A stretch of DNA of 34,045 nucleotides from an uncultured Alphaproteobacteria bacterium (GTDB taxonomy: Bacteria; Pseudomonadota; Alphaproteobacteria; UBA7985; CAJQQZ01), in NCBI GenBank assembly GCA_905480575.1, contig CAJQQZ010000126.1, forward strand, positions 1-34,045, given 5' to 3'. A program made the translations under genes and the position numbers. Shown piece after piece: positions 8,647-26,076 of the stretch (position 1 is its first letter; each line of letters opens with the position of its first letter). The notes below the pieces were generated by a model. The model saw only the letters and a program-made list of their open reading frames with translations, did not search any database and had not been told where the DNA came from.

Positions 8647-9222
8647 CTACCAACTTGAATTCAATTTTGGGATTTCTGCAACGTCACTAGGGAGTAATTG
8701 CAGGGTGCTTTCGTCGATGAATTTGTAGCGTGGCACTTCAAGGTTTTTTGCAAAACCTTTTCGTGCTCGGCCTGACGTATCGAAGTGTGTTGCATAGTGA
8801 CTTTCATACCAACCGCCAAAGTCACCACGGCTTTCATTTGGCTTCTGCCCACTAACCATAAAGCCCAGGCGGTCACCAATGGCGCTAACAACCAACCACT
8901 CTGCTCTTAGTGTACGATCTTCATCGTGCTCTTTATATGGGAGATTAGAAACATCCACCGAGCGAGCTGCCGCAATTTCCCCCGGCGTGCGGTGCGCGAT
9001 GATGATCGGTTTGCGTTCCCAAACAACAAGCACCCTTTCGCCTGCATCGAGCCCTGACAAATCAATAATACCGTCGTTGGATCTATCGACTTGCTCGCCA
9101 GATGGACCAAGACTAGCGATCAACGGCCAAGCTGCTAAACAACCGCCCACCAGAAACATGATCATCATCACGGTCGTGAGAAAATCTCGTTTCTTCGGTG
9201 AAGGAAGTGTTGTTTCAGACAT
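8647..9222 (-). CDS. Degenerate Rieske (ubiquinol-cytochrome c reductase iron-sulfur subunit-like) protein lacking all cluster ligands
   Basis: A 191-residue protein that follows the bacterial bc1 Rieske subunit along its whole length: a KKRDFL motif then a single membrane helix ending AAWPLIASLGPS (residues 10-41), WERKPIIIAHRTPGEIAAAR (69-87), RAEWLVV (106-112), GDFGGW (133-138), FDTSGRARKG (147-156) and NLEVPRYKF (160-168). The canonical box CTHLGC is GDRLGF here (116-121). The box CPCHGSH is ESHYATH (140-146). Both Cys and both His cluster ligands and both disulfide cysteines are therefore gone. The twin-arginine signal is KR. No cytochrome b or c1 gene is adjacent. The ATG at 9222 has GGAGAAG upstream. 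The frame is intact, so it is probably a retained paralogue rather than a dead gene. Confidence 0.82.
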   Translation of the reverse strand: MSETTLPSPKKRDFLTTVMMIMFLVGGCLAAWPLIASLGPSGEQVDRSNDGIIDLSGLDAGERVLVVWERKPIIIAHRTPGEIAAARSVDVSNLPYKEHDEDRTLRAEWLVVSAIGDRLGFMVSGQKPNESRGDFGGWYESHYATHFDTSGRARKGFAKNLEVPRYKFIDESTLQLLPSDVAEIPKLNSSW

Positions 9223-9378: not shown

Positions 9379-10020
9379 ATGGCACAGAAAATCTATTTTC
9401 TTATTTTTGACGAGGTTGAAGTTCTCGACTTCACCGGCCCTTTTGACGTTTTTTCAATGGCCAACGCGGCGGCAAACAGCATGAACCAACCCGACCTGTT
9501 TGAACTGCTCACCATTAGCCCAGATGGCAAAACCGTGACGGCGATGCATGGTCTGTCGATTAATCCAAACTACTCTATCGACACCTGCCCGATAGGATCG
9601 GACGACATCTTGATCGTTCCTGGCGGTACACCCCCTTCTGTTCTGTCATTTTATGACGATCATCCCGAGGTCCTGCCCTGGCTGACAGCTCAACAGGCAG
9701 AGGTGAAGGTTTTGGCTTCTATTTGTGTTGGCGCGTTGATTGCGGCACCTGCCATGGCGTTCCAAGGCAAAACGGCAACGACCCACCACCAATTCCTGGG
9801 TCAGTTGGAGACGATGCTCGCGGGACAAAACGCAACGGTTGTCCCCGGTGTTCGCTATGTCGACAATCCTGGCACCCCCACCATCATGGCATCCGCCGGA
9901 GTGTCGGCCGGATTAGATCTAGCTTTCTATTTGCTTAGAAAGCTGACCGATGCTGATATCACCAACAAAACCATGGACATCATGGAATACAACGGCACCA
10001 GGAACTGGGTTCTGGGTTAA
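9379..10020 (+). CDS. DJ-1/PfpI family protein (isonitrile hydratase-like)
   Basis: A 213-residue class I glutamine amidotransferase-like protein. Features seen are the N-terminal IYFLIFDEVEVLDFTGPFDVF, a DDILIVPGG strand near 75-83, the nucleophile elbow with Cys116 in ASICVGALIAAPA, then GKTATTHHQ and MASAGVSAGLDLAFYLL. This pattern is that of the DJ-1/PfpI subgroup that includes isonitrile hydratase and the sensor half of GlxA-type AraC regulators. No helix-turn-helix follows, so it is the stand-alone form. The actual substrate is not predictable. CGAGGATACT precedes the ATG. It converges on the MFS gene, with two bases between the stops. Confidence 0.82.
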   Translation: MAQKIYFLIFDEVEVLDFTGPFDVFSMANAAANSMNQPDLFELLTISPDGKTVTAMHGLSINPNYSIDTCPIGSDDILIVPGGTPPSVLSFYDDHPEVLPWLTAQQAEVKVLASICVGALIAAPAMAFQGKTATTHHQFLGQLETMLAGQNATVVPGVRYVDNPGTPTIMASAGVSAGLDLAFYLLRKLTDADITNKTMDIMEYNGTRNWVLG

Positions 10021-10022
10021 CC

Positions 10023-11231
10023 TCAGCCGCCAAGCTTCTTTTGCCCGGTGCGGGGATGCAGTCGTCCAGCAATGAACGCGGCGGCCATCAATCCTATGGC
10101 TGCCACCCCGAACACTGCTGGCAATGGACCAGCGAAGAGAACCAGTCTTGCAGCGCCCGGCGTCAGGATACCGGACACGTCGCGGTAGGTTGCGTAGATC
10201 GCGCTCATCTCTGTACGTTCCGACGGCTTGACCGCCATCAGGAATGGCAGACCACCACACACATCCAACAAAATGAGAAAGAATGAGGCCAAGATCAATA
10301 GCGCAACTGTCAACAAAGGAACTGCACTGGCAAGCATGGCAGCGGTAAAGAGCGCCGCCCCCAAAGTAAAACCAAAGCGAACAGCAAACCGGATAGAACG
10401 CTTCTGAACCCACCGCAAAATAAAGGGCGCGGTAAACAGCAAGCCGTTGGTGAACGAGAGTGTGATACCGCCGATCTGCTCACTCAAACCTGCTTCTACG
10501 GCATAGATCGGCAAGTACACGATGTAGAACCACCAGCCACAGGAACGCAGCACCGCGAATAACCATCCAGCCAGCAAACGCGGTTGCTCCAGAAATCTCG
10601 GCAGGAATGCTAGCGGGTTTGTCGGCTTCGATCTGGCTTTGCGGATGACTTTTCCGTCACCAAGCCGCATGATCCAAAAAACGGTCAGCAATACAACCGA
10701 TGCCCCAATCGATAGCAGGAAAGGCGCTGGGCTCCAGATATCAAAGAGCCAGATTCCAAAGTAAGGTCCAATGGTCCAGGCGGCACCGGAATAGAACAGA
10801 CGTTGGGTTTCACAAGCCGAAAGATTGTGGCGCTCTACGTAATCTAGAACGTAGGCATTAAGTGCAATGGACAGGATAGCGACACCAACCATGTTCGACG
10901 CTAACCCCAACGGGACCAAAGCTGAACTGCCGGTCATCACCATGGCAACACCGATGATATTCAACAAACCGGCAAAGGTGAAAAGGTAGCGTCTAGGAAC
11001 AGCCCGCGCCACCCAGGGTGTCAGCAAGGTCGAGGCAAGGGAGAAAACACCGATCAAGAAGTAGACTTCACTGACAGTTTCCGCATCTCCCAACGCCTTG
11101 TACATGGCAATCGGGAAAACCGAAACCAACATACCGCGCGCCATGGCCTCGATCCCGGTTAGGACTGCAAAACCACGAACTGTCGGAACTGGGTTCGGGC
11201 GCACTTGACGGGGGATACGACGCAGAAACAT
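10023..11231 (-). CDS. MFS transporter
   Basis: A 402-residue major facilitator with about twelve hydrophobic segments in two halves split by a basic loop (RLGDGKVIRKARSKPTNP, near residue 200). The N-terminal cytoplasmic tail is arginine-rich. The substrate cannot be told from sequence. It is separated by 228 bases from the TauE/SafE gene upstream on the same strand, with a perfect hairpin in the gap, so it is probably a separate unit. The start ATG at 11231 has a weak ribosome-binding site. Confidence 0.8.
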   Translation of the reverse strand: MFLRRIPRQVRPNPVPTVRGFAVLTGIEAMARGMLVSVFPIAMYKALGDAETVSEVYFLIGVFSLASTLLTPWVARAVPRRYLFTFAGLLNIIGVAMVMTGSSALVPLGLASNMVGVAILSIALNAYVLDYVERHNLSACETQRLFYSGAAWTIGPYFGIWLFDIWSPAPFLLSIGASVVLLTVFWIMRLGDGKVIRKARSKPTNPLAFLPRFLEQPRLLAGWLFAVLRSCGWWFYIVYLPIYAVEAGLSEQIGGITLSFTNGLLFTAPFILRWVQKRSIRFAVRFGFTLGAALFTAAMLASAVPLLTVALLILASFFLILLDVCGGLPFLMAVKPSERTEMSAIYATYRDVSGILTPGAARLVLFAGPLPAVFGVAAIGLMAAAFIAGRLHPRTGQKKLGG

Positions 11232-25053: not shown

Positions 25054-26076
25054 CTAGGAAGCGATTGGATCTCTATAACTGCCACCATGAGCCATGATTG
25101 CCCAGACAATTCGAGCCATTCGATTGGCCAAAGCAACAGCAACTAACATTCGTGGCTTGCGAACCAGCATTCCTGCCAACCAGCTGCCTTTTACAGGCTC
25201 CCGCCGAACAGCCCACCGGACAACCGCCATCGCACCCGTTATGAGTAACCTTCTCAGGTCTCGTTGACCCATGCGCGTTATGCGACCAAGCTTCTGTTTC
25301 CCTCCGGATGAGAATTGGCGTGGTGTTATCCCAATCCAGGCAGCAAAATCTCGTCCCTTTGAGAAGGTCTCGGGTGGCGGAGCGTAAGCAGTAATAGCCG
25401 CTGCTGTGATAGGGCCTATCCCTGGGATGGTCATCAGCCGTTTCTGTAAATCATCCTGTTTGGCTCCTGTCCTGATTTCAAGCTCTAGTTCTTTGATCAT
25501 GTCTTCGAGCTGTGCAATTTGGCCTAGAATCATTTCACAATAAAGCACGACAGCTGTTGGAAGATTGTTATCTTTCTCTTCAACAACTGCTTTCAGTTTG
25601 TCTACGTGAGAAATACCTTGCGGAGCGATGACGCCGTACTCCGATAAATGACCCCGCAAAGCATTGATCAATTGGGTCTTCTGGCGAACGAACAAATCGC
25701 GTGTTCGGAAGGCCATGCAAGCCGCTTGCTTATCCACTGTCTTCACGGCCACAAACCTCATGTTGGGCCTTGAAGCTGCTTCTGATATTGCTTCTGCATC
25801 AGCAGCGTCGTTCTTTTGCCGTTTTACAAAGGGCTTCACATAAGCTGGAGGAATTAACCTCACATCGTGACCAAATGTTGCAATCTCACGAGCCCAATAA
25901 TGAGCACTGGAACAAGCCTCCATTGCGACCAGGCATGGCGGCTGTGAAGAAAAGAACTTATGCATCCTTGAGCGAGTGATCTTCTTATTGAACTGACGCT
26001 CACCTTGTGCGGTAGCTCCATGAACCTGGAACACGTTTTTGGCCAAATCTAATCCGATTATGCTAACTTCTGACAT
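25054..26076 (-). CDS. IS110-family transposase (DEDD recombinase)
   Basis: A 340-residue recombinase. The RuvC-like DEDD residues can be placed at Asp10 (IIGLDLAKN), Glu53 (AMEACSSAHYW), Asp90 and Asp93 (KNDAADAEAI). The C-terminal half has PGIGPITAAAI and the ITPRQFSSGGKQKLGRITRMGQRDLRRLL block that carries the serine used by the family. The frame is intact, so the enzyme may be active. A perfect 9-base inverted repeat lies in the short upstream region. Confidence 0.93.
   Translation of the reverse strand: MSEVSIIGLDLAKNVFQVHGATAQGERQFNKKITRSRMHKFFSSQPPCLVAMEACSSAHYWAREIATFGHDVRLIPPAYVKPFVKRQKNDAADAEAISEAASRPNMRFVAVKTVDKQAACMAFRTRDLFVRQKTQLINALRGHLSEYGVIAPQGISHVDKLKAVVEEKDNNLPTAVVLYCEMILGQIAQLEDMIKELELEIRTGAKQDDLQKRLMTIPGIGPITAAAITAYAPPPETFSKGRDFAAWIGITPRQFSSGGKQKLGRITRMGQRDLRRLLITGAMAVVRWAVRREPVKGSWLAGMLVRKPRMLVAVALANRMARIVWAIMAHGGSYRDPIAS

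Follow-up and report, generated by a model that had tools for sequence, protein, structure and literature searches.

The window, by which we mean the whole 34,045-nt stretch that was analyzed (contig CAJQQZ010000126.1 of an uncultured alphaproteobacterium), carries at 8647-9222, on the reverse strand, a gene for a bc1-type Rieske paralog of 191 amino acids in which none of the four cluster ligands is left. The reading we favor, at a probability of roughly 0.5, is that a duplicate of petA has moved stepwise out of electron transfer and has been retained, alongside a normal petABC operon, as a Rieske domain that is anchored in the membrane and holds no cluster.

The open reading frame (8650-9222, reverse strand, with its stop at 8647) starts behind a good Shine-Dalgarno sequence (TTGGAGAAGCCATC-ATG), as a preliminary description of this DNA had noted; promoter and terminator scans gave chance-level results. 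TIGR01416 matches the protein with E=6e-26 (91.5 bits, slightly below the curated cut-off of 97.4), and the closest PDB chains are bc1 iron-sulfur proteins (ISPs), with E about 1e-24. Such scores place its relationship to the bc1 ISP well outside what chance would give. A Pfam scan up to E=10 returned neither the Rieske domain PF00355 nor the Rieske_2 profile, and its sole ISP-related match was the N-terminal anchor PF10399 (26.7 bits; cut-off 24). This anchor comprises a KRDF motif and a transmembrane segment (residues 11-39; 9106-9192, reverse strand), modeled as a helix over residues 11-38. The preliminary description had treated the KR form of the Tat motif as a change in this copy, but the canonical PetA of the genus and of several other Alphaproteobacteria also reads KRDFL; as far as these sequences go, KR is ordinary in the group and not particular to the window gene.

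Alignment with the PetA of the same genome (41% identical) shows the extent of the loss (coordinates on the reverse strand throughout). Former cluster loop 1 has changed from CTHLGC to GDRLGF (residues 116-121; 8860-8877) and loop 2 from CPCHGSH to ESHYATH (residues 140-146; 8785-8805), so that the ligand positions are now G116, R118, E140, and Y143 and the disulfide positions F121 and H142; the complete loss of ligands and disulfide cysteines first read from the sequence thus stands. The former proline loop, GPAPK, has become GFAK with one residue deleted (residues 156-159; 8746-8757). A C-terminal extension ending in NSSW (residues 177-191; 8650-8694) is shared with an ortholog in a sister species (G001, described below) and is not found in canonical PetA. 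It is established chemistry that a Rieske center needs its cluster ligands for redox work and, because all of them are lost, Rieske-centre redox is excluded for the window protein, in line with the non-redox role initially proposed. Compared with PetA as defined by TIGR01416, the window protein retains the N-terminal anchor motif, a predicted Rieske fold, and the GDFGGW and DTSGR-RKG segments. It differs in lacking the ligands, the disulfide cysteines, and the proline loop, in its diverged hinge, in its C-terminal tail, in its position outside petABC, and in scoring below the family cut-off.

The fold itself was also claimed to be retained, and the prediction agrees. An AF2 model built from a 38-row alignment, which includes canonical sequences that bias the model, has a pLDDT of 87, and its head matches bovine Rieske 1RIE with a TM score of 0.90 (1.4 A, Z 20). 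The model made from the two paralogs alone is too poor for use (pLDDT 42). Retention of the Rieske fold by the head thus remains a prediction, one that homology supports well.

The genome is 99.8% complete and has an intact, canonical petA-petB-petC operon on a separate contig (C121), as well as a single cytochrome b, with its heme His pairs and PEWY motif present. The gene is therefore away from cytochrome b and c1, as the preliminary description had it, and has no operon link to bc1. The canonical operon rules out that the window gene is the sole petA copy or that petA has been lost genome-wide, and the single cytochrome b rules out a second bc1 complex served by the paralog. Also present in this genome are 14 further open frames with Rieske domains (384-476 amino acids), a rich set of what are probably ring-hydroxylating oxygenases. 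Elsewhere in the window, an open reading frame at 25054-26076 (reverse strand) resembles an IS110-family transposase, as judged by eye.

Next to the paralog lie a gene for an NADH:flavin oxidoreductase on one side and, on the other, a divergent DJ-1/PfpI-family gene (9379-10020, forward strand) followed by an MFS transporter gene (10023-11231, reverse strand). Comparison of gene order shows that the latter two are part of a conserved block, of which the MFS gene is the third member. In G001 (CAJQQJ010000384.1), an uncultured alphaproteobacterium and the other genome examined in the genus, an ortholog with 49-51% identity is accompanied by the same series of genes (PfpI, MFS, TauE, MFS, ArsR). 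One could imagine that the partner of the paralog is the divergent DJ-1/PfpI protein, or some other system of the periplasm or membrane that has no connection with bc1. The divergent pair is indeed present in both species, and no relative of this PfpI was found in the nine other genomes of the order. However, the entire block is syntenic, so adjacency by itself says little, and the usual location of such PfpI proteins is the cytoplasm; we consider a partnership of this sort quite improbable.

The G001 copy is informative regarding how the cluster site was lost. Its loops read CPRLGC and CPCSGAH, with all four Cys kept and both His ligands absent, and the disulfide cysteines that are lost from the window protein are present. 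The preliminary description had proposed looking for orthologs with the same losses, and this ortholog shares the loss of the histidines but not that of the cysteines. The two proteins share derived features: His1 replaced by Arg, Tyr replaced by Phe in the HYD motif by the cluster site, several other replacements, and the NSSW tail. They form a clade (SH-aLRT 98) for which an origin from the petA of the genus itself is not rejected by the sequences. Given the shared Arg, the loss of His1 predates the separation of the two species, and that of the cysteines came later, in the window lineage; on the alignment, then, loss of the cluster is stepwise, His before Cys. The open frame, together with an independent MAG that has the same synteny and shared-derived residues, makes a sequencing error or chimera unlikely. 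Only two orthologs are available for comparison. A contig search with a single protein as query gave no match, and one with both paralogs as query recovered the G001 contig and canonical relatives. Additional Rieske matches in one family of the order (f2) are ligand-bearing Rieske proteins and not orthologs. Four relatives in the order (G002, G004, G006, and G008; L192-L195) encode separate Rieske proteins that keep their ligands (CLHRGC, paired with CPCHRT or CPCHRA) and start with a Tat-like segment.

Because synonymous sites are near saturation between the two species, omega needs timing from outside the gene. Pairwise dS was estimated from five flanking genes, four of which give values of 1.4-2.0 and the fifth a poorly bounded 3.9; for canonical petA it is 0.85. 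In free-branch codon fits without a clock, dS was unidentifiable and ran to its bounds, so we used fits in which the flanking genes set the branch times, and the omega values are thus dependent on a clock assumption. At a dS of 1.0 per branch, the window copy has an omega of 0.35 and the G001 copy one of 0.10, and a model with omega=1 for the window branch is rejected (2dlnL=82). If dS is lowered to 0.4 per branch, in line with canonical petA, the window copy would come out nearly neutral (omega 0.95), although the fit then worsens by 14.5 lnL units. Under neutral simulation, the frame stays free of stops with a probability of about 0.01 once 0.28 substitutions per site have accumulated, and of no more than 0.0015 from 0.7 upward. 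The calibrated fits thus show purifying selection on the window copy, as averaged over its branch and with a clock-dependent omega of about 0.35, and a long-dead gene is ruled out by the stop simulation and omega together.

Average constraint is not the whole story. In the tree, the window branch is about five-fold longer than that of its sister, which means that a recent relaxation or a change of function is real. The duplicate might be decaying, having been under selection until recently and now being unconstrained in the window species, with its frame still unbroken; the G001 form may, on this account, bind something through its four cysteines. The acceleration is what such decay would give, as are 36 window-only changes against 10 sister-only changes and the loss of 34 of 75 family-invariant positions in the window protein (15 of 75 in the sister), and visibly decayed petA copies exist in other genomes (see below). 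Against decay stand the average omega of 0.35 with flank-calibrated time and the intact frame, which has a probability of only about 0.01 if at least a quarter of the branch was neutral. The base fold, moreover, is still 62% identical to that of the ortholog, paralog-specific residues included. We regard decay as unlikely, but as deserving of serious consideration.

Where the constraint falls is also telling. The two paralogs are 62% identical over the base fold (residues 53-113) and 40-42% identical over the cluster loops, whereas the canonical PetA pair shows the opposite pattern (84% and 100%, respectively); constraint is thus shown, at the level of sequence, to have shifted to the base fold and away from the cluster loops. 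The hinge residues are 0% identical between the orthologs and the tip that docks on cytochrome b is gone. What was found is neither a lone decaying copy, nor a neutral dN/dS (neutrality being rejected under the flank-calibrated times), nor a lack of petA combined with sequencing errors, the three outcomes that the preliminary description had named as counting against it.

A second bc1-type Rieske gene occurs in few of the 385 alphaproteobacterial genomes that we sampled (a second class-wide search, centered elsewhere, drew an almost identical sample and yielded nothing further). One genome, G157, which belongs to another genus, has an intact ligandless paralog (L145, C11:166561-167199, reverse strand; CGPFGS/CPVRGAH) that adjoins a transposase-like open reading frame. 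The paralog recurs in a sister species, G407 (L159), with 96% identity and an omega of about 0.25 over 180 codons, the G407 copy being split over two contig pieces. This paralog is probably independent of the window pair and under purifying selection, to judge from the sequences. In G314, an in-frame petA paralog (L141:1444-2016, forward strand) reads CTYRGA/CPVCTSR and was not found in ten other genomes of its family. A further MAG (L067:4975-5703, forward strand) has a tandem petA copy immediately upstream of the normal petA, with a C-terminal extension and the loops CTHLPC/CVCCSSH; the replacement of His2 by Cys possibly gives it a site of three Cys and one His. Second copies have decayed in G219, where L143 is a fragment, and in G103, where L048 is without its anchor, and these two present a picture of plain petA decay. 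All of these degenerate copies sit apart from the window pair in the tree, on long branches that make their placing unsure. Overall, loss of cluster residues following petA duplication looks recurrent in these sequences, with the product kept in two genera.

Some of these loops bear on whether the cofactor could have been switched rather than abandoned, with a four-Cys metal or Fe-S site in the G001 form and a mononuclear metal held by E140, H142, and H146 in the window form. G001 retains four Cys with both His gone, His2 has become Cys in the tandem copy and in the G314 copy (CPVCTSR), and the window protein has an E-x-H-x3-H arrangement at the former site. However, the candidate residues differ between the two orthologs, leaving no single conserved site, and the window protein no longer has the proline loop, the cover of the cluster; we hold such a switch to be improbable.

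Returning to a cluster-free Rieske domain that has been kept, the sequence of events would be that a petA duplicate was retained alongside the normal petABC operon and gave up electron transfer in steps. The inner-membrane anchor would have been kept, with the head in the periplasm, and the protein would act not by redox but by protein contact, through its base fold and tail. That it is a selected non-redox protein we put at about even odds, and that it is directed at bc1 at roughly half of that. Because the protein descends from a bc1 subunit, bc1 is the natural first candidate for a partner, and we would more tentatively name the only bc1 complex of the cell, or its supercomplex. There, a redox-dead ISP homolog might serve as a placeholder or competitor, lowering or stabilizing bc1. 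The preliminary description had suggested a structural or regulatory partner of bc1, or an inhibitor, and each of these is a candidate role only. The loss of the hinge and docking tip, as read from the sequence, argues against the usual ISP docking on cytochrome b.

There are partial precedents. NirD (Rieske_2) has a Rieske fold without cluster ligands and is a non-redox subunit, soluble and cytoplasmic; it resembles the window protein in being a ligandless Rieske fold, but belongs to a different subfamily, for which the window protein has no Pfam match. Graham and Trumpower (1991, cited in PMC3119413) reportedly found that a yeast ISP lacking its cluster still undergoes import, processing, and assembly into bc1, which suggests that a redox-dead ISP can occupy the bc1 site, although these were engineered mutants and not a natural paralog. 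The statement in the preliminary description that no function is known for such a protein was too strong, because ISPs without three or four ligands have been described in degenerate bc1 operons of Acidocella, and their retention was proposed to be structural, for stabilizing Complex I (Degli Esposti et al. 2023, PMC10715153). Like the window protein, these are bc1 ISPs retained despite loss of the cluster ligands. However, the Acidocella ISP belongs to a petABC with a degenerate cytochrome b and keeps its disulfide cysteines, whereas the window protein comes in addition to a petABC that is intact, and its disulfide is gone as well. Among open-licence papers, our search turned up no description of an additional, ligandless ISP beside an intact petABC.

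It is conceivable, although we consider it doubtful, that petA duplicates in Alphaproteobacteria repeatedly give rise to selected, cluster-free, membrane-anchored Rieske pseudo-subunits that tune or scaffold bc1, the window gene being the most fully de-metallated. The Rieske ISP is among the most conserved redox subunits, and a ligandless paralog retained in a genome whose petABC is intact would amount to a respiratory pseudo-enzyme, with the two species showing the loss at two stages, His before Cys. Should it bind bc1, it would act as a naturally occurring dominant-negative or placeholder ISP and would offer a handle on bc1 dimers with one active ISP.
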